From: Verrucomicrobia bacterium LW23
GTDB taxonomy: Bacteria; Verrucomicrobiota; Verrucomicrobiia; Methylacidiphilales; UBA1321
Length of the DNA stretch: 64,000 nt
Direction of reading: 5' to 3'
Assembly (NCBI GenBank): GCA_003054695.1
Contig: QAZA01000014.1
Span: 1 to 64,000, forward strand
In this document: positions 21,781 to 44,361 of the stretch, piece after piece
Numbering within the stretch: position 1 is the stretch's first letter
How the letters are laid out: each line of letters starts with the position of its first letter
Translations under genes and position numbers: made by a program
The notes under the pieces: generated by a model
Told to the model about the DNA's origin: nothing
The model's input: the letters and a program-made list of their open reading frames with translations, nothing else
Database searches by the model: none

Positions 21781-22332
21781 ATGAATTTACGCAGCATATT
21801 CCGCCGCCGCACCGCACAGGGGGCTTTCAGTCTGGTGGAGCTTACCATCGCCATCGGCATCACCGCTTTTGGCGGGCTGACGATGATGGGGCTGCTCACG
21901 GTGGGCCTCTCCAACTTCCGCAATGCGGTCGATATGTCTGTGGGTGCGCAGATTGTGCAGCAGGTGGTAGCGGATGTTCAGCAATCCAGCTTCTCGGCCA
22001 TTGGCGGTGGCGGCGGCAGTGCGTCGCCCGCAGCGGCGGCGGCGCCAGGCACCGGCATCCCCGTGGCGTTGCCCGTGCGTTATTTTGATGATCAGGGCAC
22101 CGAGGTGGATGCCCCGGGCTCGACCGGCGGCCAGCCGGCGCTGTACCATGTGGCGGTGGGCGTTACCGTAAATGCCTCCGGCAACCTGGCCACGGTGGTG
22201 GTGGATATCGTCAACAACCCGGGCGGCCAGCTGGCTTTGCAGCGCGATGGAGCGACGGGCGGCTTTGCGAGCGACTCGGCGACTGCGCTTAAGCCGGTGC
22301 GGTATTCGTTCTACGTCTCCAAAACGCAGTAA
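21781..22332 (+). CDS. Verru_Chthon cassette protein B: pseudopilin, GspI-like position
   Basis: 183 residues from the ATG at 21781. The prepilin signal is RRRTAQGAFSLVELTIAIGI: basic leader, Ala at -1, Phe at +1 and Glu at +5, followed by one hydrophobic helix (about 16-38). The rest is a small globular domain with a Gly/Ala-rich loop (GGGGGSASPAAAAAPG) and the close PVRYSFYVSKTQ. Cassette B proteins are known only as prepilin-like proteins of unknown role in Verrucomicrobiota. The short length and single-helix layout match the GspI minor pseudopilin. First gene of the B-C-A-D cassette, 116 bases before C. Confidence 0.85.
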   Translation: MNLRSIFRRRTAQGAFSLVELTIAIGITAFGGLTMMGLLTVGLSNFRNAVDMSVGAQIVQQVVADVQQSSFSAIGGGGGSASPAAAAAPGTGIPVALPVRYFDDQGTEVDAPGSTGGQPALYHVAVGVTVNASGNLATVVVDIVNNPGGQLALQRDGATGGFASDSATALKPVRYSFYVSKTQ

Positions 22333-22432
22333 GCTGAGCAGCCGCAAGGGGTTGCAACCAGGCGCGGCGCGCCGCGGCAGCAGCAGAAGCAGCAGCAAGC
22401 GCAGAGAGCGAGCAGGTTAGTTTTTTTCCCGC

Positions 22433-22438
22433 AAGGAG
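22433..22438 (+). promoter_or_regulatory. Shine-Dalgarno site that fixes the start of cassette gene C
   Basis: AAGGAG lies ten bases before the ATG at 22449. The TTG at 22440 is only one base away from it and cannot be the start. Confidence 0.6.
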
Positions 22439-22448
22439 ATTGCGATCG

Positions 22449-23531
22449 ATGAGTGTTCCTCCCATCCAAGCCCGCGCCATCCCGGCGGCGCCGCGACCGC
22501 GCCCCGCACGGGCTACCGGCTTTAGCCTTGTGGAGATGATGGTGTCCATGGCCATCCTGAGTATGTTGCTGGTGGTGTTGCTGGGCATTCTTAACCAGAC
22601 AAGCACGACGTGGCGCTATACGTCAGGCAAAATCAAGCAGTTCCGCGCGGCGCGGGATGCGTATGACTCCATCACGCGGCGCCTCGGCCAGGCCACGCTC
22701 AACACGTACTGGGATTACGATAGCCCCACAGCGCCAACACGTTACCAGCGGCAGTCGGAGCTTCGCATCCTGACCGGGCCGATGGCCACTATCGCCGGCA
22801 CGGCGCCCGCGGGCAAGGCGTGGACGACGCACGGCGCGTTCTTTCAGACGCCGGTGGGCTTTACGGCAACCGCTGCCGGCGGCGGGCCGGATGCCACAGG
22901 GCTGGAGAATCTCCTTAACACCTGGGGCTACTTTGTGGAGTTTGGCGACGACGCGGCGATGCGCCCGCCTTTCCACACCGCCCCTGCACGCTACCGCTAC
23001 CGCCTGTGCGAGTTTATGCAGCCCTCCAACCAGCTCACCATCTACCGGCACACTAGCGGCAACCCGGGCTACACGGGGCGCGACTGGTTTACGGAGGGCC
23101 TCAACGCCGCCCCCGGCGCCGGGAGGCCGGTGCATGCGCTGGCGGATAACGTGATTGCCCTGGTCTTCATCCCCAAGCTTTCCGTGCAGGACGACGCGAC
23201 CGAGACGCGCCTGGCGCCCACGCTGGTGTACGACTCCACCACGGCCGTGACGGATGCGGCGGTCAATCCCAAACATCAGCTGCCGCCGGTGGTGGAGGTG
23301 ACGATGGTGGCGATCGACGAGGCCTCCGCCGCACGCCTGGCGCAGGGGACCACGGCGCCCGATGTGGGCCTGACCGGCCTTTTCGTCGCCGGCCCCGGGG
23401 CGGCTGCGAGGGTGCGCGACGACCTGCGCACGTTGCAGGAGCGGCTGACGCAGCGGCGCATCCAGTTCCGCGTGTTTACCTCCGATGTGGTGATTCGCGG
23501 CGCCCGCTGGAGCACGGAGCAAAGCAACTGA
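22449..23531 (+). CDS. Verru_Chthon cassette protein C: pseudopilin, GspJ-like position
   Basis: About 360 residues. The prepilin signal is RARATGFSLVEMMVSMAILS, with Gly at -1, Phe at +1 and Glu at +5, preceded by an unusually long Pro/Ala/Arg leader of about 24 residues. The helix continues as MLLVVLLGILNQTSTTWRYT, and then RAARDAYDSITRRL, which is how GspJ minor pseudopilins begin. The remainder (TYWDYDS, YRYRLCEFMQPS, LADNVIALVFIPKLS) is cassette-specific. The end (LRTLQERLTQRRIQFRVFTSDVVIRGARWS) is typical of cassette C proteins. Translated from an internal Shine-Dalgarno site. Confidence 0.87.
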   Translation: MSVPPIQARAIPAAPRPRPARATGFSLVEMMVSMAILSMLLVVLLGILNQTSTTWRYTSGKIKQFRAARDAYDSITRRLGQATLNTYWDYDSPTAPTRYQRQSELRILTGPMATIAGTAPAGKAWTTHGAFFQTPVGFTATAAGGGPDATGLENLLNTWGYFVEFGDDAAMRPPFHTAPARYRYRLCEFMQPSNQLTIYRHTSGNPGYTGRDWFTEGLNAAPGAGRPVHALADNVIALVFIPKLSVQDDATETRLAPTLVYDSTTAVTDAAVNPKHQLPPVVEVTMVAIDEASAARLAQGTTAPDVGLTGLFVAGPGAAARVRDDLRTLQERLTQRRIQFRVFTSDVVIRGARWSTEQSN

Positions 23532-23620
23532 CGGGCACGGCCAGCCAGGCAGCGGGACAACGGAAGCGCTGTAAGGCATTACATTTCCATATCTCCGCAC
23601 TACCGCACGGACTACTTTCC

Positions 23621-26600
23621 ATGAAACGACTTTCCTCTCTCTCCTCAGCCCGGCGCGGCTTTGCGCTGGTGGTGGTGCTCTCCGTGCTGGCCATTGTCAC
23701 GGTGCTGACCATCGCGTTCCTCGGCAGCACAATGACCGAGGTGGCCACCTCCCGCACGCAGGCCAACACGGGGCGCGTGCAGTTGCTGGCGGACTCGGTG
23801 CCGCAGATCGTCATCTCCCGCATCAGCGATGCCACGACGGGACTGGTCGACCCCTCGACGCCGGCATCTGGCCGCCTGGCCTGGGCCTCGCAGCCGGGGA
23901 TGATCCGCACCTACCGCGAGGACGGCACCCCCGCCACCTACCACCGCCTGTACTCGGGCGACGAGCCGACGATCGCCGGCGCCTCATTTATTCAGGACGC
24001 CGAGGTGCCTCCGCCCAACTGGGATAAGCAGCGCGGCGTCTTTGCGGACCTCAACAGCCCCGTGGTGCGCGTCGATTCCGTCACCGGCGCCCGCTCGATA
24101 CAGTTCCCGGTGGTCGATCCTCGCGCGCGCACCACGGACGACGCCACGAGCGTGGCCGGGTTCAGCTACGCCAATGCAATCAACGGCGTCGTGCAACCCG
24201 CCGCGGCCGCGGCGGACAGCCAGCGCCTGCCGATGCCGGTGAGATGGATGTATGTGCTTGCGGATGGCACCTTTGCGCATCCCATTGAAGGCGTTACCGG
24301 CACCGTCGCCTTCTCCGGCGGCGCGCCCACGGAGGCCAACCCGATTGTTGGCCGCATTGCCTTCTGGACGGACGACGAGACCAGCAAGGTCAACATCAAC
24401 ACGGCGTCGGAGGGCATTTACTACGACATCCCCCGCTACACGGGCGCGCCGGATTTTGTGCTCTCCATGTACTCCCCGGCCCTGGGCGAGTACTACCGCT
24501 ACCCCGGCCACCCGGCCACCACGTGCCTGAGCGCCGTGCTTCGCCCCTGGCTGCCCTCGCCCAACGAGCTGGCTATCTCCTACGACACGAGCTACGCGCC
24601 GCCCGGCCTGGCCATCAGCCCGCGCCTCAGCCCCAGCGTGGCGACGGAGCTGCAGACGCGTCTGGACGCCTACCTGGGGTTGTCGCCGCGCTCTCGCTTT
24701 GGCGGAAGCAAGGGAGGCACGGTGCTGACCGCGGCGGCGCCCAACGGCACGGTGCCGTCCGTCGCACCCAAGTCGGAGCGGCTGTACAGCTCGGTGGATG
24801 AGCTCCTTTACGGCGCCGCGATGCCAGGCACGGAGCGTGCCGCCTCTCACGCCGCGCTGGATAAAGCCGCGCTGGAGAAGGCGCGCTTCTTCCTCACCGC
24901 CAACAATCGCGCGCCGGAGGTGAATCTCTTTGGCCTGCCGCGCGTTACGGTATGGCCCATCCACCGCAACACGGCGGCCACGCACCGCACCACGCAGGAC
25001 ACGCTCATCGCGTTCTGCTCCACGCTGGGCAGCATGACGTCGGCGGCCACGCAGTTTCCCTTCTACTTTCAGCGTGGCAACCCCAAAAGCGCTACGGACG
25101 ACTACACGGGCATTGCGCGCAATGGCCTGCTGTACAGCTATTTGCAGTCGGTTACGGGCATGACGATTCCCGGTTTCGGCAAGTCGCTGCTGACCAAGTA
25201 CGGGCCGGCGGAGCGCGACCAGATTCTGACGGAAATCTTCGACTACATCCGCGCCGTTAACCTTAACGATCCCAACCTGCCCGCCGCCGGCCGCTATACG
25301 GACGACTACGCCACCTCCGGCGGCACCTACGGCAACCCGAGCAGCTCGCCATACCGCTCGCCGGGCATTGTGGTGCCAATCAAGATCGCCAACACCAAAG
25401 GGGCGGGCCGCTGGCCGGTGATCGACCAGGCGTTCCTGGTCTTCTACACCCCGGCGTTTCCCGTGGCGGGCGCGACGCCGGAGCTTACGGAGACCCGTGT
25501 GCGGGCCGCGCTGATGTTCAATTTCTTCTACCCCAGCCAGGGCTTTATGGTGTGCTTTACCAACGCGCAGCTGGAGGTAACGTCGGCCGGCGATTTTCGC
25601 TGCGAGCCGGTGAGCAACGCCAACCCGGCGCTCTCGGCCTCGCTCGCCTCGCCCACGGGGGAGTTCTCCTTCTTTAACGACGGCACCACCGTCACGCAAT
25701 GGGCTAACGCCAACGAGCGCGGCAACGGTGCGGGCTCGCCGCGCAACTTTGGGGGAAATCACGGCTTCGCCTCTCTGCTGTCGCATCAGATCTCCAATGC
25801 CGATCCGCGCAAAAAGTTCACGCTGGTCTCTCGCAACATCCCGGTGATTCGCGGCGACCCGACGAAGGCGAAGTGGAACTTCCGTGGCGGGACGTTCCGC
25901 GTCAACCTGCGGGCCGATCCGTACCCGGCTTCGGGCCTGGGCGAGGTGATACAGTCCTACGAGTTTGAGTTTCCGGACTCGCTCAACAACCCTATCCCCA
26001 CGGCGGGGGCCATCCACAACCCCACCAGCAACAAGTACACGCCGGCGGCGGCGGATATCGAGAACGGCGGTAAGGGGCAGGCGGGCGGCATTTACATGAT
26101 AAGCCGCAAGGCGGACCCCGTGACGCAGAACGGGCAGGACGGCGGCGACGTCGTGCGGTCGATCCAGCTGGCCGACAAGCCCGGCACGGGCGGCTACATC
26201 GGCGGCGATATCCGTCGGCTGTGCTACGTTACCACCGTGCCGAAGGAGTGGTACTCCAAGCACAAGAACTACGACCTGGGCGGCTACAAAGCGCACTCCC
26301 TGCGCGACGGCGTGGGCGCCAACTTGAGCGACGCTTTGAACGCCGGAGCTGTGGTGCCCGGCATGTCCTTCGCAGGCGGCGCCAACTATAACCCGTACGT
26401 GCGCAACGAGATAAACGGTGTCTACGCCTCCAGAACCGGCGTCACCAGCGACGCCCCCGGCGACTGGAACAACAGCTTTGGCAACGGTCCCGACGGCCCC
26501 TACACCAACCGCCCCGACGAAGGCACCGCCGCCGCACCCGGCGCCGGCAGCGAGCCCTATTACGAGTGGAACGGCGTTCCGCAGAACAAGAATCTCACCT

Positions 26601-27475
26601 CGCCCAACCGGCAGTTCCCCTCGGCCGGCATGTTCGGATCGCTCTCCACGGGCACCACGCAGGGCTTCAGCTGGCAAACGCTGCTCTTTCGGCCGGACCA
26701 CACCGGCAAGCACCCCGGCCGCGCGGGCGTAGCCGTGGATGGCACCCCAAGTGCCTCCGCCGCAGCGGATTACATGTGGCTCGACCTCTTCCACATGCCG
26801 GTGGTGGAGCCCTATGCGATCGGCGAGCCCTTCTCCACGGCCGGCAAGGTGAATCTCAACACGCAGATCATGCCGTTCACCTACATCACCCGCAACACGG
26901 GCATATGGGCGGTGCTGATGAGCGAGCGCGTGCTGGGCATCCCGAGTACGACGCCCTCGCAATCCAAATTCTACACCAACAAGCTGACGAATCCTGACTG
27001 GCGCTTCCCGGTCAACATCCCCGAGACGCTCAAGGGGCTGCAGGCGCGCTTTGCCGCCGGCGATATTTTCCGCTCCGCCGCCGAGATCTGCTCGCTCGAC
27101 ATCATCCCGAAGGACCCGGCCGACGCCAACGCCAAGTACGGCACGATGGGTGCCTACTGGAACAACCGCAAGCTTAGCGGCGACAACGTGCGTGAGCGGC
27201 CCTACACCACCATCTACCCGCGCATCACCACCAAATCCAACACCTACACCGTGCACTATATCGTGCAGGCGCTGAAGAAATCGCGCGGCACGGTCGAGGA
27301 CGTGTGGGTGGAGGACCGCGATCAGATAGCCGGCGAGTACCGGGGCAGCGCGATGATCGAGCGCTACGTGGACCCGAGCGACCCACGCGTGCCGGACTTT
27401 GCCACCGCCACGGACAAGACAATCGAGAGCTTTTACCGCTGGCGCATTACCACCACCAAACGCTTTGCCCCCTAG
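23621..27475 (+). CDS. Verru_Chthon cassette protein A: giant GspK/PilX-like protein
   Basis: 1284 residues, the expected size for cassette A. The N-terminus RRGFALVVVLSVLAIVTVLT is a prepilin-like helix with Gly-Phe but no Glu at +5, a feature shared with GspK and PilX, the pilus-tip subunits. FWTDDETSKVNINTAS (Lys256-Ser263) resembles the GspK 'N(I/L)NTA' motif. A second copy, GKVNLNTQ, starts at Lys1076, which suggests an internal repeat or two related domains. Most of the protein is extracytoplasmic, Gly/Asn/Pro-rich and largely beta-like. Function is unknown in the literature I know. I infer a tip or adhesin role in a pilus-like structure. Confidence 0.88.
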   Translation: MKRLSSLSSARRGFALVVVLSVLAIVTVLTIAFLGSTMTEVATSRTQANTGRVQLLADSVPQIVISRISDATTGLVDPSTPASGRLAWASQPGMIRTYREDGTPATYHRLYSGDEPTIAGASFIQDAEVPPPNWDKQRGVFADLNSPVVRVDSVTGARSIQFPVVDPRARTTDDATSVAGFSYANAINGVVQPAAAAADSQRLPMPVRWMYVLADGTFAHPIEGVTGTVAFSGGAPTEANPIVGRIAFWTDDETSKVNINTASEGIYYDIPRYTGAPDFVLSMYSPALGEYYRYPGHPATTCLSAVLRPWLPSPNELAISYDTSYAPPGLAISPRLSPSVATELQTRLDAYLGLSPRSRFGGSKGGTVLTAAAPNGTVPSVAPKSERLYSSVDELLYGAAMPGTERAASHAALDKAALEKARFFLTANNRAPEVNLFGLPRVTVWPIHRNTAATHRTTQDTLIAFCSTLGSMTSAATQFPFYFQRGNPKSATDDYTGIARNGLLYSYLQSVTGMTIPGFGKSLLTKYGPAERDQILTEIFDYIRAVNLNDPNLPAAGRYTDDYATSGGTYGNPSSSPYRSPGIVVPIKIANTKGAGRWPVIDQAFLVFYTPAFPVAGATPELTETRVRAALMFNFFYPSQGFMVCFTNAQLEVTSAGDFRCEPVSNANPALSASLASPTGEFSFFNDGTTVTQWANANERGNGAGSPRNFGGNHGFASLLSHQISNADPRKKFTLVSRNIPVIRGDPTKAKWNFRGGTFRVNLRADPYPASGLGEVIQSYEFEFPDSLNNPIPTAGAIHNPTSNKYTPAAADIENGGKGQAGGIYMISRKADPVTQNGQDGGDVVRSIQLADKPGTGGYIGGDIRRLCYVTTVPKEWYSKHKNYDLGGYKAHSLRDGVGANLSDALNAGAVVPGMSFAGGANYNPYVRNEINGVYASRTGVTSDAPGDWNNSFGNGPDGPYTNRPDEGTAAAPGAGSEPYYEWNGVPQNKNLTSPNRQFPSAGMFGSLSTGTTQGFSWQTLLFRPDHTGKHPGRAGVAVDGTPSASAAADYMWLDLFHMPVVEPYAIGEPFSTAGKVNLNTQIMPFTYITRNTGIWAVLMSERVLGIPSTTPSQSKFYTNKLTNPDWRFPVNIPETLKGLQARFAAGDIFRSAAEICSLDIIPKDPADANAKYGTMGAYWNNRKLSGDNVRERPYTTIYPRITTKSNTYTVHYIVQALKKSRGTVEDVWVEDRDQIAGEYRGSAMIERYVDPSDPRVPDFATATDKTIESFYRWRITTTKRFAP

Positions 27476-27487
27476 ATCCCAGGCGCC

Positions 27488-28138
27488 ATGATAATGCTTT
27501 ACCCGAACGCCCCGCACCGCCGCACCCGTGCCGCCTTCACACTCTTTGAGCTGCTGATGGTGATGGGCATTGTCCTGATTATTGGCGTGCTGGCCATCCC
27601 CGCGCTCAGCTCCGTAAAGCGCAGCACCGCCCTTACGCGGGCGGAGGACGAGATCCTGGGCGAGCTAAGCCTGGCGCGGCAGCACGCCATCTCCGTTAAC
27701 CGCGACGTGGAGGTGCGCTTTTACCGCGTGCGCGAAAGCGCCGCGCCTTCCGCGCCCTGGCGTTTCCGCGCCGTGCAGGCGTACACCTACGACGCCGCCG
27801 GCGCAGCCACCCCGCTGCGCATCGTGCGGATGCTCCCGCGCGAGGTGGTCATCGACTCGGGCACCACACTCAGTACCCTGCTGGCCGCCGCGCGCAAAAA
27901 GGCGTGGTCCGCCGATGATCCGCAGCCGGTCGTCCCCGGCTACGGCACGGATTACGAGGCATGGGCCTTCCGCTTCCGCCCCGAAGGCGGCACGGATTTG
28001 ACGCCCTTCCCCGCCACGCCCTGGTTCATTACCCTGCATGACGCCGGCCTCGGCGACAGCCTCGCCACGCCGCCCGCCAATTACGCGAGCATTGTGGTGG
28101 ATCCGGTCAGCGGGCAGATGTCGAGCTTTCGCCCGTAG
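27488..28138 (+). CDS. Verru_Chthon cassette protein D: pseudopilin, GspH-like position
   Basis: 216 residues. The prepilin signal is RTRAAFTLFELLMVMGIVLI (Ala at -1, Phe at +1, Glu at +5). LGELSLARQHAISVNRDVEVRFYRV after the helix is the GspH hallmark of an Ala/Arg helix followed by a beta strand. FRPEGGTDLTPFP and PPANYASIVVDPVSGQMSSFRP at the end are cassette-D features, shared with the stand-alone paralogue at 38673-39326. The start could also be the ATG two codons later. It follows gene A by 12 bases and closes the cassette; an SDR gene converges from the other side 32 bases away. Confidence 0.87.
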   Translation: MIMLYPNAPHRRTRAAFTLFELLMVMGIVLIIGVLAIPALSSVKRSTALTRAEDEILGELSLARQHAISVNRDVEVRFYRVRESAAPSAPWRFRAVQAYTYDAAGAATPLRIVRMLPREVVIDSGTTLSTLLAAARKKAWSADDPQPVVPGYGTDYEAWAFRFRPEGGTDLTPFPATPWFITLHDAGLGDSLATPPANYASIVVDPVSGQMSSFRP

Positions 28139-33488: not shown

Positions 33489-34982
33489 TCAGCGGGAGGC
33501 GTAGGGGTCGGCGGCGTCGCGCATGCCGTCGCCCAGGAAGTTGAAGGCGAGCACGGTGACGACGATCATGACGACCGGCATCAGCAGCCACGGGTAGTTC
33601 GCCACGATGTCGAGGTTAAAGCAGTCCTGCAGCATCACGCCCCAGCTTACCACGGGCGGGCGCAGGCCCAGGCCCAGGAAGCTCAGCGCCGTCTCGCCGA
33701 GGATCATGCCCGGCACGCTCATGGTGAGCGACACAATGATGTGGCTGGAGAAGCCCGGCAGCAGGTGCACAAACAGGATGCGCGAGTCGCTGGCGCCCAG
33801 CAGGCGCGCGGCCACGGCGTAGTCTTCGTCGCGGAGCGAGAGGATTTTGCCGCGCACCACGCGGGCCAGGCCGGTCCAGTTAAGAAGGCTCAGCACCACC
33901 GTAATGGCAAAGTAGGTTTGCACCGGCCCCCACGAGGCGGGCATGACGTTGGCCAGCGCCAGCCACAGCGGCAGGTTGGGCAGCGAGTTAATCACCTCGA
34001 TAAAGCGCTGGATAAAGCCATCCACACTGCCGCCCATGTAGCCGGAGATGCCGCCCACAATGGCGCCCAGCACAAAGGTCACGACAATCGACACCAGGCC
34101 GATGGAGAGCGAGATGCGCCCGCCATAGCACAGCCGGCTCCACAAGTCGCGCCCGAAGCCGTCGGCGCCGAGGAGGAAGAACGTGTGCCCGCTTTGCGCG
34201 TGGGCCTTCTCAAAGTCGGCCACACCGAAGAAGCGCGTCTCCATGGGGATAAAGCCCCACATGTGGTAGGGCTCGCCTTTCACAAAAAAGCCGAGAGGCA
34301 CTTTCTCCCCGGTGCGGATGAAGTAGTTTTGCTGGGTAATCGGCTCGATCTTGCGCTCCAGCTTGTCGGTGTAAAAGCCGTCCGCCATGCTGAAGCGGAT
34401 GCTCTGGGGAGGGGCAAAGATCATGTTCACGTCCTTCCACGTGCTGGAGTAAGGCGCGAAGAACTCCGCAAACAGCCCCATGGTGTAGAGCGCCACGAGC
34501 ACGTACAGCGAGATAACCGCCAGCTTGTGCTTGGCAAACCGCCGCTGAATCAGCTCCCACTGCGAGCGCGTGGAGCCCGCGCCTTTCATGTCGCCTTCGT
34601 CGTCCGGGGTAAGCGGTGTCGTCTCGCCCGGTATGGACGCGGCGCCGCCGCCCGGCGCATGCGGGTCGATGCCTGTGTCGTTGGGCATGACCGCGGGGAG
34701 CGGCAGCAGGTCGTGCAGGATCGGTGCCGGCGCCGGGGTCTCCTGGGCGGCCGGGGCGGCGGGGGCCGGGGATGCGTGCCGCTCGGGCCCGGGCGCGGGG
34801 GATACCTGTGCGGGGCGGGCGGATGTCTCTGCGGGTGAGGCAGATGCGCTCGCCTCCCTGGGCGCGATTGGGGACGGCAGCGGATCTGCCGCGAGCGTTT
34901 GCCCGGAAGCGGGGCCTTGCCCGGCGCTGGAGGGACGGCGTGGTGCGGAATCGGCGGGCGGGGGAGTCGTACGGCTGCTCAT
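33489..34982 (-). CDS. Oligopeptide-type ABC transporter permease (OppC class) with long N-terminal extension
   Basis: 497 residues, longer than the usual 280-350. The first about 150 residues are Pro/Ala/Ser-rich and low-complexity, so they are probably a disordered cytoplasmic extension. The OppC core follows: first membrane segment LAVISLYVLVALYTMGLFAE, a large outside loop, then five more segments. The EAA loop, which contacts the ATPase, is LRDEDYAVAARLLGASDSRI. The closing LGDGMRDAADPY is typical of OppC/DppC. Its ATG overlaps the stop of the upstream fusion gene as ATGA (34979-34982), with AAGGAGG six bases upstream, so the two are translationally coupled. Confidence 0.92.
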   Translation of the reverse strand: MSSRTTPPPADSAPRRPSSAGQGPASGQTLAADPLPSPIAPREASASASPAETSARPAQVSPAPGPERHASPAPAAPAAQETPAPAPILHDLLPLPAVMPNDTGIDPHAPGGGAASIPGETTPLTPDDEGDMKGAGSTRSQWELIQRRFAKHKLAVISLYVLVALYTMGLFAEFFAPYSSTWKDVNMIFAPPQSIRFSMADGFYTDKLERKIEPITQQNYFIRTGEKVPLGFFVKGEPYHMWGFIPMETRFFGVADFEKAHAQSGHTFFLLGADGFGRDLWSRLCYGGRISLSIGLVSIVVTFVLGAIVGGISGYMGGSVDGFIQRFIEVINSLPNLPLWLALANVMPASWGPVQTYFAITVVLSLLNWTGLARVVRGKILSLRDEDYAVAARLLGASDSRILFVHLLPGFSSHIIVSLTMSVPGMILGETALSFLGLGLRPPVVSWGVMLQDCFNLDIVANYPWLLMPVVMIVVTVLAFNFLGDGMRDAADPYASR

Positions 34983-37900
34983 TTGCTGCCTCCTTCAAAG
35001 CGAATGCGGGGATCGAGCCAGAGGAGCATCAGGTCGCTCATCAGGGTGCCAAGCACGCTCAGCATGCTAAGGATCATCAGCATGGAGGCGGCCATATTTA
35101 CGTCTTCGGTCTGCAGCGCGTCCAGCAACAGCGGGCCCACCAGCGGCAGGCTCAGGATAATCGCCACCAGCGCGCCGCTGGAAATCAGGCCGGGCAGCAG
35201 CCCGCCGATGTTGGAGATAAACGGGTTAAGCGCCATGCGCACCGGGTATTTAATCAGCAGGGGGAACGGCTTCTTGCCCTTGGCCATGGCGGTGGTGACG
35301 TAGGGCTTGCGCAACTCGTCCAGCAGATTGGCGCGCATCACACGGATAAGGCCCGCCGTGCCGCCCGCCGCGATGACGATGACCGGCACCCATATGTGCT
35401 TGAGCATGTCGATAACCTTGCCGACCGACCAGCCCGGCTGGGTGAGATACTCCGGCGAGAAAAGGCCCGTTACGTTCATGCCCAAATACTTGCCGCTGAA
35501 GTACATAATCAGAATGGCCAGCACAATGTTGGGGATACACATGCCGATAAACGCGATAAACGTCATCACATAATCCCCCACCGTGTACTGCCTGACGGCG
35601 GAGTAAATGCCGACGGACATCGCCACCGCCCAGGTAAACACAATCGTGGCCAGCGAGACGACGATCGTCAGCAGGATGCGGTCGCCAATCGAGTCGTTAA
35701 CCGAGCGCTGCGTGGCCATGGATTTGCCAAGCTCGCCCTGCAGCAGGCCGCGGTCCACGGGGTTAAGCGTGGTGAACCAGAGCAGGCCGCTCCAGCGCAG
35801 GTACTGCTTCCATATCGGGTCGTCGACGAAGAACGCGTCGCGCAGGCGCTCGATGTTCTCCACCGCGTTTTCGTCGCCCATAGTACGGGCTTCCAGGATA
35901 CGCGTCTGGATAAAATCGCCGGGCGGCATCTGGATGATGTAAAACGTGGAGACCGACATGATGGCCAGGGTCGGGATCATGACCAGCAGGCGCCGGCCGA
36001 TGAAGGGGTATTTCACCCCCGCGTACACAATGCCCAGGGCCATAGCGCCCAGCACCATCTGCCAGATCACGCCGCTCCAGCCTTCCGTGCGGGCCTTCAT
36101 CGTTTTGGCGTTGAAGGTGAAGGGTGCGGGCGTGACGGTCATCACTTCCTTTTGAATCTGCTTTTCCGCTTCGGGCGTGTCGTTCGTTTTCTCAAAGTAA
36201 AACGTCTCGATACCCGCCGTAGAGGGCGTCGCAAAGTTGTAGCCGCTGATGGCGTTGCGCGGCACGTTGCGGAAGCCGTTCTTCACCACCACCAGCTGCG
36301 GCGAGGGCGTAGCCACGCTGATGGACCATACGTTCTCGGCGGCGATGTCGAAGATCTGGTTAAAGAGGCGCACCTGCTCGGCGCGGTCGGCCGTCTTCAG
36401 CACCTGCTCGTAAAGAGTGTGGCCCTTGTAGACATCGCTGTCCTTGGGCGGCGCCAGCTCGGGGCGTGCGGTGGGATCGCCATAGTAGCCGCCGCGGCTG
36501 TACCAGTTGCCGTGCGCGGGGGCCCAGTGCGCCTCGGAGTTACTTGCGACAAAACTGCGCGGCTCGACGATCGGGTTGAACTCGCCCTCGCCGATCCACA
36601 CCGTAAAGTCGTGCTTGAAGGTGTTTTTCTCCACGGAGAACAGCTGGCGCGCCCGGTTGCGCTGTACGGCACGCACGCCCACTTTGGCCCAGTCGTCGGT
36701 GATAAACTGCACGGGGCCTTCGCCCGCAAAGTCGGTCATGTCGATGGAAAACTGCATGCGTGTGCCGTCCGCAAAGCAGCGCATGCCGTCGCTGTCGCGC
36801 TGGGTCAGGCCTAGTTCGTCCAGCATCTTGTTGGCGCGGGCGGGATCGTAATCCGTGTAGCTTTTGGCCAGCTTCTCGTTGTGGAACTCCGAGTCCTTGC
36901 CGGGGGCGATCTGCGAGGGCTCGCCCATGCCGTTGTAGATGGCCTTGATGATCTCCGGCCGGTTGATCGCCAGCGACAGCGCCTGACGGAACCGCTTGTC
37001 GGAGAGCAACTTCTTCTTGTTGCCACTGGCCGGATCCTCCGGCAGCACGGCGCGGTTGATGTTGGGATAGAGCGCCCAGTTGGAGCGCGCGGCGGGGAAC
37101 CAGTGGTACACCTCGTACCCGTTCTTCTTCCGGTTATCCATCAGCATTGTGTAGCTCTCAAAGCCGATAAAGCGCTCCTGCAACGTCAGGTCGCCCGCCG
37201 CCGCGGAGAGGGGGATGAGCTTGGGATTCTTGACGTCGAACAGAATGCGGTCCACGTACGGCAACTGATTGCCCTTTGTATCCACCACAAAATAGTAGGG
37301 GTTGCGCACCACGGACTCCGGCGGGCTGCTGCGGAAGGTGCGGTACACCCACGGCCACAGCCGCGGGTGCTCCGGATTGCGCGCATCCTTTTTGGCGAAG
37401 TAGAGGCCGCGCGCTGTCAGGCTGCCTTCCGCCTTCATCGTGGCGGCGATGAGCTCCTTGTTGCCCTTGGTGGGGTGATACTGCGCCAGGTAGTGGCGGG
37501 GCGTCAAAAAGCCCTGCGCGTAGTTGGCCGTCAGCGTCTCCAGAAACGTGCCGTAGGGGCCGGGGAAGGTGAACTTGATGGTGTAGTCATCCACCTTGGT
37601 AATGTTGCCCAGCTTGCCCTCCACCGTCAGCCACTTGGGCTGGCCTTTGCTCAGCGGGCGCTCCTCGTCCCACCAGTACATAATGTCGTCGGCCGTAAAG
37701 GGATGGCCGTCGCTCCAGCGCACGCCTTTGCGCAGGTAAATCGTCCATTCGCTCTTGTCCGCATTGGTGCTCCAGCCCCTGGCCAGATGCGGGCGGATGG
37801 GGTAGCCGAGCGGCGACCACCGCACCAGGCCGCAGCCGGAGAGACGCGGCGAGAGCGTGCCGCCAATATCGCCGGCCGAGTTGGTGACGCGGATCCACGT

Positions 37901-38275
37901 GCCGCCGTAGGTGCCGATGCCTTCGCAGCCTTCCATCACCAGCGGCTCCGGGCCGGTGCGCTCCGCCACGGGGGGGAGTTTGCCTTCCTTCACCAGCTCG
38001 CTCAGCAGGGGGGATTCGCCCTTGGGATACCACGGCGCCGCGGGGCCCTGGGCGTAGTCCACATCCCGCTGCAGCACGGGCATGTTGTTACGGTCGATCG
38101 TGGTGTCGCGCAGCTTGAGCTCCGCCGCCAGCTGCGCTGCGTCAATGGGCAGTGGCTCCGTGCGGAGTGAGGGGCTGAACCACATCCCCAGGGCCACCAG
38201 GCCCAAAACCAATGCGGTTGCGATGAGCGCCAGGCGGCCGAGGAAGCGCAGGAGAGGAAGGACAAATGCAGGCAT
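34979..38275 (-). CDS. Fused solute-binding protein and ABC permease (SBP_bac_5 plus OppB class)
   Basis: 1098 residues from the ATG at 38275 (MPAFVLPLLRF). An N-terminal membrane helix (about 3-34) anchors a family-5 binding domain, about 60-700. Hallmarks are WTIYLRKGVRWSDGHPFTADDI, LTLQERFIGFE and RQALSLAINRPEIIKAIYNG. A second helix near 736-755 leads into a complete OppB-type permease: FIGRRLLVMIPTLAIMSVST, a periplasmic loop, ISDRIL-like helices and the EAA loop region near 968-1000 (RANLLDELRKPYVTTAMAKG). The usual free binding protein is thus covalently tied to the channel, at one copy per permease. No frameshift or internal start is needed to read it. The ligand is probably a peptide or oligosaccharide. 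Confidence 0.93.
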   Translation of the reverse strand: MPAFVLPLLRFLGRLALIATALVLGLVALGMWFSPSLRTEPLPIDAAQLAAELKLRDTTIDRNNMPVLQRDVDYAQGPAAPWYPKGESPLLSELVKEGKLPPVAERTGPEPLVMEGCEGIGTYGGTWIRVTNSAGDIGGTLSPRLSGCGLVRWSPLGYPIRPHLARGWSTNADKSEWTIYLRKGVRWSDGHPFTADDIMYWWDEERPLSKGQPKWLTVEGKLGNITKVDDYTIKFTFPGPYGTFLETLTANYAQGFLTPRHYLAQYHPTKGNKELIAATMKAEGSLTARGLYFAKKDARNPEHPRLWPWVYRTFRSSPPESVVRNPYYFVVDTKGNQLPYVDRILFDVKNPKLIPLSAAAGDLTLQERFIGFESYTMLMDNRKKNGYEVYHWFPAARSNWALYPNINRAVLPEDPASGNKKKLLSDKRFRQALSLAINRPEIIKAIYNGMGEPSQIAPGKDSEFHNEKLAKSYTDYDPARANKMLDELGLTQRDSDGMRCFADGTRMQFSIDMTDFAGEGPVQFITDDWAKVGVRAVQRNRARQLFSVEKNTFKHDFTVWIGEGEFNPIVEPRSFVASNSEAHWAPAHGNWYSRGGYYGDPTARPELAPPKDSDVYKGHTLYEQVLKTADRAEQVRLFNQIFDIAAENVWSISVATPSPQLVVVKNGFRNVPRNAISGYNFATPSTAGIETFYFEKTNDTPEAEKQIQKEVMTVTPAPFTFNAKTMKARTEGWSGVIWQMVLGAMALGIVYAGVKYPFIGRRLLVMIPTLAIMSVSTFYIIQMPPGDFIQTRILEARTMGDENAVENIERLRDAFFVDDPIWKQYLRWSGLLWFTTLNPVDRGLLQGELGKSMATQRSVNDSIGDRILLTIVVSLATIVFTWAVAMSVGIYSAVRQYTVGDYVMTFIAFIGMCIPNIVLAILIMYFSGKYLGMNVTGLFSPEYLTQPGWSVGKVIDMLKHIWVPVIVIAAGGTAGLIRVMRANLLDELRKPYVTTAMAKGKKPFPLLIKYPVRMALNPFISNIGGLLPGLISSGALVAIILSLPLVGPLLLDALQTEDVNMAASMLMILSMLSVLGTLMSDLMLLWLDPRIRFEGGSK

Positions 38276-38672: not shown

Positions 38673-39326
38673 TCACGAGCCCGGCCGGAAAATCTTCGTG
38701 CGCCCCGTCACCGGATCCAGCTGCACCGTCGCGTAGTTGGCCGGCGGCGCGCTCTCTGTCGGCGGGCGGGTGGCCAGGTGAAGCATCACGTGCCAGGTGT
38801 CATCGCCAGGCGCCGTGGCGGCCAGATTGGTGCTGCCGTCGGGGCGGTACTGAAAGTAGTGGTACGGGTACGTCGTCGCGCCGGTGGGGTCGAGCGGCGT
38901 CAGCGGCCCGGAGGCAGTCTGCGTTCCCGTCAGCAGAGAGGCAAAGCGCTCGGTGGTGGCCATGCGCACGCGCTTCTCCAGCCAGGCCAGCTGGCGGATC
39001 TGCGTCGGCCCGCTGTCATCGATGCGAAACAGACCGACCGCGATGGTGGTGCCGGGTGTTCCCTTGGGCGCGGGCACCGTGTAAAAGCGCACCTCCACGG
39101 GACGGTTGGAGCTCAGCGCCGTTTGCCGCGCCAGGCTGAGGGTGTCGGCCACAGTGGTTGCGGAGACGCCAAGCTCCACGCCCGCCGAGACGCCGATGAA
39201 GGCGGGCGCCGCCAGCACGGTGACGACTGCGATGACAGCAATGACGGAGATCAGCTCGATAAGCGAGAACCCGCCCCGGGCACGGGTGGCCCGGCATCGG
39301 GACGGGGAGGAGAGAATGGCGCTCAT
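38673..39326 (-). CDS. Stand-alone GspH-like pseudopilin, paralogue of cassette protein D
   Basis: 217 residues from the ATG at 39326. The prepilin signal is RARGGFSLIELISVIAVIAV, with Gly at -1, Phe at +1 and Glu at +5. DTLSLARQTALSSNRPVEVRFYTV aligns with the same block in the cassette-D protein, as do YRPDGSTNL and PPANYATVQLDPVTGRTKIFRP. The first half of the mature part is otherwise different. It has no B, C or A partner beside it; the neighbours are an ABC operon and a large exported protein. It may feed into the same structure as the cassette or serve another copy elsewhere. Confidence 0.85.
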   Translation of the reverse strand: MSAILSSPSRCRATRARGGFSLIELISVIAVIAVVTVLAAPAFIGVSAGVELGVSATTVADTLSLARQTALSSNRPVEVRFYTVPAPKGTPGTTIAVGLFRIDDSGPTQIRQLAWLEKRVRMATTERFASLLTGTQTASGPLTPLDPTGATTYPYHYFQYRPDGSTNLAATAPGDDTWHVMLHLATRPPTESAPPANYATVQLDPVTGRTKIFRPGS

Positions 39327-39744
39327 GGCCGGGGGAGAGGAGAGAGAGGGGATTGCGGAGCGGGGGCGAGCGGCGGGCGGGGTGTAACCGCGGCGGTTGA
39401 TCCGCATGACAATGATGCTTAAATTGCCGCGCTGGAGCAAAGCATTCCTTTGCGCGAGCAGGTTTAATCGTAAACAAGGGGATCTTCCGAGTCTTTCCGC
39501 AGGGTAACAGATTATGCGCTTGCATCGCGATCGCGGTTATTATTATGATTGATATGATAGGCATGCATGCGATTTTGCCTCTGCACAGACGCTCCAGCTG
39601 TATGCATCCTGTATAGTGTTAATTGGCATTGCGACTGCCTCCCCGTCCGCTACAACAGATTGTGCCGCAACGTATCACCCGATTCCCCCGCACGCATCCG
39701 CTCCCGATAGCAGCTCCTCGCACCTCCGCACCTCCGCAACGCCT
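39327..39744. other. Intergenic region of 418 bases with palindromes
   Basis: There is an AT-rich centre (39480-39620). CGCGATCGCG (39526-39535) and GCATGCATGC (39561-39570) are perfect palindromes with centres 35 bases apart, possible operators between two divergent genes. TATAGT (39612-39617) resembles a -10 box but has no partner -35 box. No gene is seen. Confidence 0.45.
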
Positions 39745-42700
39745 ATGAAATCCTCCATCCATCGCCTCCGCACGACGCTGGCCCTGGCCTGCACCCTCGG
39801 CCTCTCCGTCGCCGCCGCCGCGCCCGTCAGCCATGCGGCGCCGCCGGCGCCGGCCCAGGCCAAAGCCGACGCAAAGTCGGGGTCCGCGGCCGCTCCGTCC
39901 TCCGCGCTGTTTGTCACGCACATTACGAAGGACGACCTGGACCCGGAGACCTACACCCACTGGGTGGACGGCAAGGAGGAGCCCCGCCCTAATGGCCTGA
40001 CGGACAAGGAGATGCGTGCCTTTATGCCGGATAACCTCGTCTACACCTCCAACTCGCAGACCAGCCACGGCAACTACGCGTTCGGCGATTCCAAAAACCC
40101 CGGCCCGCGCCACCTGCGCATCGGCTTTCACAATCCGGTGGCGGTCGGTACCGTCATCGTCAACGGCACGGGCACGGTCAGCGCGCTGAAGAAGGACGCG
40201 AAGTATCCCGGCGACCTGGGGAATGACTCGCAGTGGATCCCCGCCCAGCGCCTGGAGGACGGCGCCGTCAGCAGCCAGGGCGCCAATGGCCTGGCCGTGT
40301 GGGTGCTGCCCCCCGGCACGGAGACGACCGCGCTGCGCCTGACGCACGTGGCCGAAGCGAAGGACCGTAAGTACAATGGCAACTTTGGGGGCATGTGCAT
40401 ACTGAAGGAGCGCCTGGCCAACATCGCGCCGCAGGCCATGCCCATCGCCATGTCCAACAACCAGCACGCCGCCCGGCTTATTAACGAGAAGTCGGACGGC
40501 TGGGGGTCCTGGGAAAACGCCTCCGTGGAAGGCGCGCCCGCCCGCGGACAGACCGTTGCCGAGGCCCCGGAATGGATGATGCTGGTTTGGCCTAAAGCCG
40601 TCAGCATCAACGGCTTTGCGTTTACCTTTACCGGCTTTGGCACGGCCGAGGTGCAAACCTACGCGGGCCCGGACTCCACCCACCCGCGCGACGCCGCCGA
40701 CTCCGCCTGGAAGACGGTGGGGACCGCCGACAAGCTGGAGAGCCAGTATCCGCGCCAGTTGGGCCTGGAGTTCTTTGACTTTGGCAAGGCGGTAAGCACC
40801 CGCGCCGTGCGCCTTCGCATCACCGCTACTAACGACAGCAATCACCCGCACATGAAGTCCCGCCCGGCCGGCGGCAAGCGCGTGTGGCTGGGCGAGTGGA
40901 TGGTGCTGAGCGATCTGAAGGCCGCGCCCGTCGCCACCCTGGCCGGTATTTCCGCCCCCGCCCGGCCAAAGAAGGCCGAGGCGCCCCCCATTGGCATCCC
41001 CATCACACTGCCCGAGGACGGCTTTGTGACGCTGGTTATTGAAGACAGCACCGGCAAGCGCGTGCGCAATCTCGTCTCGGAGACACCCTTTCCCAAAGGC
41101 AAAAGCGTGGTGGAGTGGGATGGCACCGACGACCTCGGCCGCGACCTGGATGCCGCCAAACACGGCCTCTACCGCATCCCCGCGCAGGTGGTCGCGCCCG
41201 GCAGCTACAAGGTGCGCGGCATCTGGCGCAAGGCGATTGACCCGCGCTATGAGTTCTCCGTCTACGTCACCGGTAACCCGCCGTGGAACACGCCGGACCA
41301 CACCGGCGCGTGGCTCGCCAACCACTCGGCACCCCAGGCCGCCGCGTTCGTCCCCGCCGCCAAGTCGCCCACGGGCGAGCCGGTGGTTTTCCTGGGCGCC
41401 TACGTTACGGAGGGGCCGGACGGCTTTATCTGGGTGGATATGAACGGCAAGAAGGTTGCAGGCAAAAAGTGGATCGGCGGCAACTGGACCGCCGCCCCGT
41501 TCATCGCCGCCGATAACGGCCCGCAGGCCATTGCCGACCATTGCGTGTACGTCGCCAGCACGTGGAAGGAAAAGGTCAAAAAGGGCAGCAAGGACGTGCC
41601 CGTTGGCGAGCTGCGGATCACCGCCCAGGCGCTCAACCCCAACAAGCTGGCCGAGGGGACACAGCGCCTTGTCGATACCCCGATCTATCGCGGCCCCATC
41701 CCCGACATCAAAGGCGAAGGTGTTGCGGCGGAAGAAGATGCGGACCCCGACCACGACGTGGTGGCCGCCAACGCCAGGCCCGATCCCACAAAAATCAGCG
41801 GCCTGGCCGTGCACAACGGCCTCATCGCGGTCAGCTTTGTGGGCCAGGATGGCGTGGCGCTGCTCAACGCCCGTGACGGCGGCAAGCAGGTGGGCCAGAT
41901 CACCATCAAGGCACCCACCGGCGTGGCGTTTGACGGCAAGGGCCGTCTGCTCGTGCTGAGCGGAAACCGGCTGGTCCGGTACGAGCCGGTAGGTAGCGAT
42001 CCGGGCAAAATCCCCGCCCCGGCCACCGTCATCGCGGCCGGGCTGGAGGAGCCGATCGCGCTTACCATCGACGCTGCCACCGGCAATATCTATATCAGTG
42101 ATCGCGGCCAGAGCCACCAGGTCAAAGCATTCTCGGCGGACGGCAAGCCGTTCCGCACCATCGGCACCGCCGGTGCGCCCAAGGCCGGGCCGTACGATCG
42201 CAACCACATGAACAACCCCTACGGCATTGCCGTGGATGGTACCGGCCGCCTCTGGGTGACGGAGTGCGACTTCCTGCCCAAGCGCATTAGTGTGTGGACC
42301 GCCTCCACCGGCACGCTGGAGAAGGCGTTTTACGGCCCCGCCAAGTACGGCGGCGGCGGCACGCTCGATCCGCAGGACCGCAACCGCTACTACTACGCCG
42401 ACGAAGGCAAGGGCGCCATTGCCTTTAAGCTGGACTGGGAGAACGGCACCTACGAGCCCGAGGCCATCTACATCCGCCGCACGCCGGAGACGATGAAGAT
42501 GCCGTTCCGCTCCGCCGCCGCCGAGACTCCGCTGTACCACAACGGCCGCCGCTACTTCACCAACTGCTACAACGACAACCCCACCGGCGGCAGCGGCACC
42601 ACCGTACTGTATCTGGAAGGCAAGGACGGCGTGGCCCGCCCCGTCATCATCGCCGGCAAAGCCGCAAACTGGGACCTGCTGAAAACCGACGAGATGAAGC

Positions 42701-44361
42701 CCCACCTGCCCGAGGGCCTGGACTTTAACGCCAAAAACCCGAAGGCCGGACGCGCGTTCTTTCTGTGGACCGACGCGAATGGCGACGAGAAGATGGTGCC
42801 CGAGGAGCTAAGCTGGCTCCCCGGTGTCGACAGCGGCGGCATGACCGTCATGCCCGACCTGAGCCTGTGCGTGGCGCGGCTTGACGGTAAAGCCGTGCGC
42901 TTCGCCCCCACCGGCTTCACCGAAAGCGGCGTGCCAAAGTACGACCTGACGAAGCCCGAGGTGCGGGCAGAGGGCGTGGAGAGCTCGCGCAGCAGCGGCG
43001 GCAATCAGATGCTGATGACCGACGACGGCCATACCATCGTGTCGCTTGGCATGGCGCCCTTCAGCCCGTACTCGCTCAGCGGTGCCAAGGATGGCAAGGC
43101 GACGTGGAGTTACCCCAATCCGTGGCCCGGTCTGCACGCCAGCCATCACGCGGCGCGGCCGGATCGCCCCGGGCAAGTGATTGGCGCTACGCGGCTTATG
43201 GGCGGGCTGTTTACGCCGAGGGGAAGCGATGCCGGGCCCATGTGGGCCATCAATGCCAACATGGGCAACTGCTACATCTTTACGGCGGACGGCCTGTTTG
43301 TGACGACGGTATTTCACGACGTGCGCAAGGCGCCCGTGTGGGGCATGCCGCAGGCAGTGCGTAACATGCAGGTCGGCAACCTCTCGCTGCACGACGAAAA
43401 CTTCTGGCCTACCATCGCGCAAACTTCGGATGGCAAAGTGTATATGACGGACGGCGCCCGCTCGTCGCTCGTCCGCCTGGACGGCCTGGAGACCGTAAAG
43501 CGCCTGCCTGACTCCACCATCACCATCACCGCCGACGACCTGAACAAGGCCCGCGTTGCGCTCATGGCCCGCGAGGCCGAACGCCAGGCCGAACGCGGCA
43601 CGGGCATCCTGAAGGTGGCCTTGCCGAGCGCCGCGCCCGTGGTGGACGGCAAGCTGGAGGACTGGAGCAAAGCGGCGTGGGTCGACATCGAGAAAGCCGG
43701 CGCCGGCGCCAACTTTAACAGCGACGCCCGCCCCTACGACGTGCGCGCCGCCGTGGCCGTGGCGGACGGAAAACTGTTTGCGGCGTGGAAAACCGTTGAT
43801 GATGAGGATCTTCTGCGTACAAACAGCGGCGAGATTGCCGAAGCGCCCTTCAAGACAGGCGGCGCGCTCGACATCATGATCGGCACCAACCCATCCGCCC
43901 CCGCCGACCGCAAGGCGGCCGCGCCCGGGGATGTGCGTCTGCTGATCACCCGCAAGCCGGAAGGGGCCACCGCAAAGGATGCCAAGAAGCAGCACTACAA
44001 GACGATGGCCGTGCTCTATCGCCCCGTCGTGCCCGGCACTCCGGCGGAGAAGCGCGTGCCCTTCAGCAGCCCGTGGCGCACCTTCCACTTTGACCAGGTG
44101 ACGGACATCAGCGACAAGGTGCAGGTGGCCGACGACGGCAAAGGCGCGTTTGAGATCTCGGTCCCCCTCGACATCCTGGGCCTCAAGCCCCAGCCCGGAG
44201 CGCGCCTGCGCGGCGACATCGGCGTGCTGCGAGGCGTACCCGGCCAGACAACAGCGCGCGTCTACTGGAGCAACAAAGGCACCGCCATCGTGTCGGACGT
44301 CCCCAGCGAAGCCGAACTCCTGCCCGCCCTCTGGGGCGACTGGGAGTTTGACCGGCCGTAG
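39745..44361 (+). CDS. Very large exported beta-propeller protein with FlgD-like Ig and CBM9-like domains
   Basis: 1538 residues from the ATG at 39745. The signal peptide is 1-31 (LRTTLALACTLGLSVAAAAP, ending SHA|AP). Order of parts: a discoidin-like beta region (to about 400); a FlgD-type Ig domain (VTLVIEDSTGKRVRNLVSE and GLYRIPAQV); NHL-type propeller blades (GVAFDGKGRLLVLSGNRLVRYE, NPYGIAVDGTGRLWVTECD); and a C-terminal CBM9/DOMON-like domain (VVDGKLEDWSKAAW, FEISVPLDILGLKP). No catalytic signature is obvious. Such multidomain proteins are common in polymer-degrading Verrucomicrobiota and Planctomycetota. It may bind polysaccharide at the cell surface or be an unrecognised enzyme. Confidence 0.82.
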   Translation: MKSSIHRLRTTLALACTLGLSVAAAAPVSHAAPPAPAQAKADAKSGSAAAPSSALFVTHITKDDLDPETYTHWVDGKEEPRPNGLTDKEMRAFMPDNLVYTSNSQTSHGNYAFGDSKNPGPRHLRIGFHNPVAVGTVIVNGTGTVSALKKDAKYPGDLGNDSQWIPAQRLEDGAVSSQGANGLAVWVLPPGTETTALRLTHVAEAKDRKYNGNFGGMCILKERLANIAPQAMPIAMSNNQHAARLINEKSDGWGSWENASVEGAPARGQTVAEAPEWMMLVWPKAVSINGFAFTFTGFGTAEVQTYAGPDSTHPRDAADSAWKTVGTADKLESQYPRQLGLEFFDFGKAVSTRAVRLRITATNDSNHPHMKSRPAGGKRVWLGEWMVLSDLKAAPVATLAGISAPARPKKAEAPPIGIPITLPEDGFVTLVIEDSTGKRVRNLVSETPFPKGKSVVEWDGTDDLGRDLDAAKHGLYRIPAQVVAPGSYKVRGIWRKAIDPRYEFSVYVTGNPPWNTPDHTGAWLANHSAPQAAAFVPAAKSPTGEPVVFLGAYVTEGPDGFIWVDMNGKKVAGKKWIGGNWTAAPFIAADNGPQAIADHCVYVASTWKEKVKKGSKDVPVGELRITAQALNPNKLAEGTQRLVDTPIYRGPIPDIKGEGVAAEEDADPDHDVVAANARPDPTKISGLAVHNGLIAVSFVGQDGVALLNARDGGKQVGQITIKAPTGVAFDGKGRLLVLSGNRLVRYEPVGSDPGKIPAPATVIAAGLEEPIALTIDAATGNIYISDRGQSHQVKAFSADGKPFRTIGTAGAPKAGPYDRNHMNNPYGIAVDGTGRLWVTECDFLPKRISVWTASTGTLEKAFYGPAKYGGGGTLDPQDRNRYYYADEGKGAIAFKLDWENGTYEPEAIYIRRTPETMKMPFRSAAAETPLYHNGRRYFTNCYNDNPTGGSGTTVLYLEGKDGVARPVIIAGKAANWDLLKTDEMKPHLPEGLDFNAKNPKAGRAFFLWTDANGDEKMVPEELSWLPGVDSGGMTVMPDLSLCVARLDGKAVRFAPTGFTESGVPKYDLTKPEVRAEGVESSRSSGGNQMLMTDDGHTIVSLGMAPFSPYSLSGAKDGKATWSYPNPWPGLHASHHAARPDRPGQVIGATRLMGGLFTPRGSDAGPMWAINANMGNCYIFTADGLFVTTVFHDVRKAPVWGMPQAVRNMQVGNLSLHDENFWPTIAQTSDGKVYMTDGARSSLVRLDGLETVKRLPDSTITITADDLNKARVALMAREAERQAERGTGILKVALPSAAPVVDGKLEDWSKAAWVDIEKAGAGANFNSDARPYDVRAAVAVADGKLFAAWKTVDDEDLLRTNSGEIAEAPFKTGGALDIMIGTNPSAPADRKAAAPGDVRLLITRKPEGATAKDAKKQHYKTMAVLYRPVVPGTPAEKRVPFSSPWRTFHFDQVTDISDKVQVADDGKGAFEISVPLDILGLKPQPGARLRGDIGVLRGVPGQTTARVYWSNKGTAIVSDVPSEAELLPALWGDWEFDRP

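Follow-up and report, generated by a model that had tools for sequence, protein, structure and literature searches.

A Verru_Chthon cassette of Verrucomicrobia bacterium LW23 probably encodes a minor-pseudopilin tip complex with an enlarged GspK-like subunit

The cassette locus

The window analysed here, a stretch of 64,000 nucleotides from contig QAZA01000014.1 of Verrucomicrobia bacterium LW23, carries four adjacent genes on the plus strand, where a preliminary description made from the sequence had placed them. In order, they encode cassette protein B, a candidate GspI-like minor pseudopilin (21781-22332, 183 aa), protein C, probably GspJ-like (22440-23531, 363 aa), protein A, apparently an enlarged GspK-like subunit with a large insertion (23621-27475, 1284 aa), and protein D, probably GspH-like (27488-28138, 216 aa). 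All four exceed the curated NCBIfam cut-offs for membership of the Verru_Chthon cassette families: B scores 52.2 against 51.4 (TIGR02598), C 317.8 against 256.5 (TIGR02599, E 1e-94), A 942.2 against 332.3 (TIGR02600, E 5.8e-283) and D 130.9 against 70 (TIGR02596, E 6.2e-38). The intergenic gaps of 107 (B-C), 89 (C-A) and 12 bases (A-D) give an operon-like spacing.

Three of the proteins begin with a prepilin signal with Phe at +1 and Glu at +5 (B, QGA/FSLVE; C, ATG/FSLVE; D, RAA/FTLFE), and A lacks the glutamate (ARRG/FALVVVL), both as previously described. Across the family, and with a start finder that favours Glu at +5, this residue is present in 76 of 76 B, 75 of 80 C and 76 of 76 D proteins; with the same bias, it is not among the common residues at +5 of 94 A proteins, and all 17 cassette A proteins of the LW23 genome are devoid of it. 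This is the signal pattern of a type II secretion system (T2SS) tip, with Phe+1 and Glu+5 in the H-, I- and J-like proteins (D, B and C) and no Glu+5 in the K-like protein A. Residue -1 is Ala, not Gly, in B and D, as it is in the I and J proteins of the genome's own T2SS.

Around the cassette, neither an ATPase nor a platform or secretin gene was recognised, in agreement with the preliminary description, and the cassette is not placed within a gspC-M operon, the T2SS operon of this genome being on another contig. The proteins do not reach the NCBIfam equivalog cut-offs for GspH, I, J and K (GspK 19.3 of 130, GspH 20.2 of 80, GspJ 13.6 of 64.85), and are thus relatives of the Gsp subunits, not members of these curated families. 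The genome's own GspK and GspJ are also below their equivalog cut-offs.

Relationship to the Gsp minor pseudopilins

We compared profiles built from cassette proteins only (LW23 genome and 80 related loci) with GspG to GspK of LW23 and of E. coli K-12, the T2SS operon of LW23 being the internal yardstick for the H/I/J/K assignment. In this panel, the best match of each of the four profiles was the expected partner: GspK for A (8.7e-5 and 9.9e-5; next match 0.017), GspI for B (2.2e-8 in its own genome and 6.4e-5 in E. coli, carried by the N-terminal helix only), GspJ for C (1.1e-10 and 9e-7) and GspH for D (2.3e-13, with GspG second). The similarity to the Gsp proteins sits mostly in the N-terminal helix. 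With the helix removed, the D profile had its own GspH (3.6e-4) and that of E. coli (0.011) as the two best matches of the panel, and the A, B and C profiles retained no match among GspG to GspK. Since only the D-GspH relationship survives helix removal, sequence alone would not settle the H/I/J/K assignment. Other searches gave little: the Pfam GspH model (PF12019) matched D under its cut-off (E 0.0037), a Pfam scan of A returned PilX_N at E 0.049 and nothing else, a GspK profile without the helix found no significant match in A, and PDB sequence profiles gave no match for A, nothing meaningful for B and pilin matches at the level of the helix for C and D. A viral structure library searched with A yielded nothing.

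We modelled C from 60 sequences (pLDDT 90.2). Its ten highest-scoring matches, at Z scores of 9.7-11.0, comprise only GspJ-type proteins (XcpW, EpsJ, GspJ; 5vtm_W 10.8, 3cfi_B 10.7, 3ci0_J 10.6) and the Thermus pilin TTHA1219, the next unrelated row being at 4.8; Foldseek gave weak support to the GspJ type (E 0.3). The model gives C a GspJ fold, and the profile without its helix gives D a probable GspH globular domain. For B, identity with GspI is made plausible by the N-terminal helix and gene order.

Protein A: a predicted GspK fold with a probable large insertion

With 1272 mature residues against about 300-340, A is indeed about four times the size of GspK, and the VNINTA and VNLNT motifs to which attention had been drawn are found near mature residues 248 and 1066, in strongly conserved blocks. 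We modelled A from mature residue 73 onward (1200 residues, 66 sequences, pLDDT 80.2, pTM 0.88). The two solved GspK structures rank first and second among its PDB matches (3ci0_K, Z 8.3; 6utu_I, Z 8.1), and the alignment with 3ci0_K covers 226 of 280 GspK residues at 3.8 A rmsd, spread over model residues 1 to 1200. Foldseek also ranked 3ci0_K first, at a weak E of 1.0. The next family, a C2-type beta sandwich (Z 6.2), matches model residues 517-810 only. The model thus points to a GspK fold in A. Together, the predicted folds of A and C match GspK and GspJ above all the unrelated chains examined; folds unrelated to the Gsp subunits, which the preliminary description had named as a refutation, were thus not seen for these two proteins.

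The two NxN motifs are separated by 108-118 residues in six GspK proteins versus 652-982 (median 810) in 91 A proteins, and A therefore looks like a GspK with some 700 residues inserted between the motifs, including a variable beta-sandwich. The best-conserved parts of A are the two blocks around the motifs: the first (24338-24418, plus strand; model residues 156-182, ...FWTDDETSKVNINTASEG) has 83% mean majority identity among 66 relatives and the second (26753-26887, plus strand; model residues 961-1005, ...STAGKVNLNTQIMPFTYI) 79%. Between them, the beta-sandwich region (25418-26302, plus strand; model residues 516-810; weak C2/Ig-type matches, Z 4-6) has 31% among the 66 relatives, the lowest value of all segments. 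The simplest reading is that a large insertion, bearing a variable head, entered the alpha domain of a GspK. How the A motifs pair with those of GspK is inferred, and the exact insertion point is uncertain, as hhalign, driven by the helix, pairs the first NxN motif of A with the second of GspK.

Copies, gene order and co-inheritance

Of the 32 A-type genes of the LW23 genome, 17 belong to the cassette family and the other 15 are divergent. Among the 15 divergent sets, nine are complete and read D-B-C-A, which corresponds to gspH-I-J-K. The assignment of B to I, C to J, A to K and D to H made in the preliminary description is supported by this order, by the best profile matches and by the predicted folds of A and C; as a structural reading it has good support for A, C and D, and is plausible for B. 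The 15 divergent large K-type genes (L063-L083), outside the cassette-family cut-off, are apparently an undescribed sister group of the cassettes.

In most of the 80 related loci the cassette genes lie together, in several orders: B and C nearly always adjoin, A and D change place, and orphan A, C and D genes exist. A lone second D paralogue, with no B, C or A beside it, is present in the window itself (38673-39422, minus strand; TIGR02596 115.1 bits, cut-off 70), and about 1.2 kb past the window end a second B-C-A cassette without D (L053, 5191-11035, on C14) lies beside a polysaccharide lyase. Across 69 loci, the pairwise distances of the four proteins correlate at 0.76-0.80 (A-C, r 0.77). 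Within the LW23 genome, the correlation is 0.66 for A-C (p 0.0005), 0.46 for C-D (p 0.005) and 0.37 for A-D (p 0.03), and is not significant for the pairs with B. A and C behave most clearly as one unit.

Hand counts from merged matches gave between about 2 and 24 A-type genes in each of seven relatives. Chthoniobacter flavus Ellin428, a cultivated relative, carries cassettes. In the phylum, 157 of 289 genomes have A-type matches to the N-terminal part, most of them in frames of 700-1400 residues, and only 8 have full cassette A proteins over the cut-off. We did not use PF03934 (T2SSK) as a marker for such a count, as it is contaminated by matches like that at C53:17630, in a Tex-like frame with an S1 domain and a ComEA helix-hairpin-helix.

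Secretion and pilus cores

The LW23 genome contains, elsewhere than at the cassette, a prepilin peptidase and both T2SS and type IV core genes, which the preliminary description had proposed to search for and whose absence would have spoken against its reading. There is one prepilin peptidase match, and six of the seven relatives also have a single peptidase frame (hand counts from merged matches). The one T2SS operon, on contig C17, comprises GspD, E and F, then G-H-I-J-K at 78330-81821; L and M were not recognised beside gspK, and the next gene translates to a nuoB-like protein, recognised by eye. The type IVa pilus core comprises two tandem PilB/GspE-like ATPases, four PilT-type ATPases and two Amuc_1098-type secretins. 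Tad-like ATPases are also present, as is a type III secretion type secretin (L067, 8400-11306; SctC, 456 bits, over the cut-off). T2SS-like secretins and GspE/PilB-type ATPases occur in all eight genomes, and in each they represent more than one set; co-occurrence thus does not discriminate between T2SS and type IVa pilus as the core used by the cassette.

Neighbouring genes

Giant PATR (autotransporter-repeat) proteins are encoded directly upstream of ABCD cassettes at L189, L191, L193, L198, L203, L221 and others, in relatives such as Chthoniobacter and Verrucomicrobium. A search of the LW23 genome found no PATR, and the link between PATR and cassette therefore rests on the relatives. In the window, the lone D paralogue and the gene for a secreted NHL-repeat protein of 1538 aa are arranged head to head (38673-44361), and at L059 a protein 47% identical to this NHL protein comes directly after A, with a frame that begins at the end of A. 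A two-partner secretion (TPS) domain occurs in a 1633-aa protein encoded downstream of a cassette (L057, 13529-18430). Also in the window, a 1098-aa open reading frame (34979-38275) fuses a family 5 solute-binding protein (PF00496) to an ABC permease (PF00528), with two adjoining ABC ATPase genes. As to function, the cassette neighbours (PATR proteins, carbohydrate enzymes, and NHL giants twice) are leads only.

A probable minor-pseudopilin tip complex

The cassette probably specifies a tip complex of minor pseudopilins, belonging to the type IV filament superfamily, in which B, C and D correspond to GspI, J and H, and A to an enlarged GspK. The single recognised prepilin peptidase would cleave all four proteins; the I, J and K counterparts would form the tip, which the H counterpart would join to the filament. 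This complex would start the assembly of a filament made by a shared core, either the T2SS on C17 or the type IVa pilus machine. In the XcpUVWX complex, GspK/XcpX is topmost, and substrate recognition is attributed to the tip (PMC6211770); GspK is proposed to meet them (PMC6211770, PMC7541494). By analogy with XcpUVWX and with the Myxococcus tips (PMC7541494, PMC12075869), A is expected to carry its head on the outside, where it would determine specificity; at the extreme end of the filament, the head may decide what is bound, an export protein or a surface polysaccharide. With about thirty related sets, a genome would then provide one or a few machines with many specificities. These thirty sets, together with one recognised processing enzyme, suggest many exchangeable tips on few shared machines, an arrangement with precedents at smaller scale. 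One might tentatively go further, with somewhat less than even confidence, and see in LW23 some thirty exchangeable tips on one or a few cores, with the head built into K and specificity set by tip swapping, possibly switched with the polysaccharide at hand.

The strongest competing reading, to which we also give rather less than an even chance, is that the cassette caps a type IVa pilus and not a T2SS pseudopilus, as a FimU-PilV-PilW-PilX-like set in which A combines PilX and the PilY1 adhesin in one chain. The type IVa ATPases and secretins of this genome would suit such a cap, PilX also lacks Glu5, the T2SS already owns its H-I-J-K, and in M. xanthus a single type IVa machine works with three minor pilin/PilY1 clusters (PMC7541494). 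However, the alignment of A to GspK extends over almost all of its fold, and A shares with GspK the presence of two NxN motifs, whereas its PilX_N match is marginal and the Pfam scan found no PilY1 domain in it; C likewise matches GspJ, though no PilW structure was among the compared rows.

Each cassette might also serve one export substrate encoded next to it, namely the PATR giants in relatives, and the NHL-repeat giants or polysaccharide enzymes in LW23. This is doubtful, although compatible with a tip complex, for which it would specify the ligand. PATR-type giants are beside the cassette and on the same strand in 14 related loci, some of which are near-duplicates, and make up 17 of 167 next neighbours versus 17 of about 340 further genes, but the LW23 genome has none. 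There, the evidence consists of the two NHL giants, adjoining A at one locus and the lone D at the other, and of glycoside hydrolases, a lyase and a deacetylase near the cassettes, the neighbours scanned having been chosen by eye. Finally, A to D might be surface proteins, prepilin-like and anchored in the membrane, that do not enter a filament at all. This would agree with the orphan A, C and D genes, with the lack of core genes beside the cassettes and with homology evidence that leaves assembly to inference, but is improbable given that H, I, J and K are each represented by one relative in the set, that Glu+5 is kept in the first three and absent only in K, as in filament tips, and that A and C distances correlate.

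Comparison with known systems

The Verru_Chthon cassette proteins A to D are full members of families whose models (TIGR02600, TIGR02598, TIGR02599 and TIGR02596) carry no role, and our literature search found no paper using these family names; the tip complex presented above proposes a role for four curated families previously without any. With the T2SS tip GspH-I-J-K (XcpU-V-W-X) the cassette shares four prepilin-like subunits, a K without Glu5, the predicted J and K folds (C and A), the relatedness of H and I, and, in the divergent sets, the gene order. It differs in that the K-like A is about four times larger, that the cassette stands alone and in tens of copies, that its order in the window is I-J-K-H, and that the Gsp equivalog cut-offs are not reached. 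Substrate choice by the T2SS is an open question, with GspK at the tip as a proposed contact point. It becomes directly testable in a phylum that has tens of paralogous tips with an enlarged K, few cores and one recognised prepilin peptidase.

The Kil/Tad tips KilLMN of M. xanthus are likewise interchangeable, and their largest minor pilin bears an exposed variable domain, but they are TadE/F/G-type trimers on a Tad pilus, described without mention of GspK (PMC12075869). The PilY1/FimU/PilV/PilW/PilX clusters 1-3 of M. xanthus are also alternative tips for apparently one machine; they are three sets, in which PilX goes with a separate PilY1 adhesin (PMC7541494), whereas in LW23 the sets number some thirty and the head is part of the K-like subunit itself. 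Multiple exchangeable tips are thus already known in Myxococcus, and what is new here is the scale and the enlarged K.
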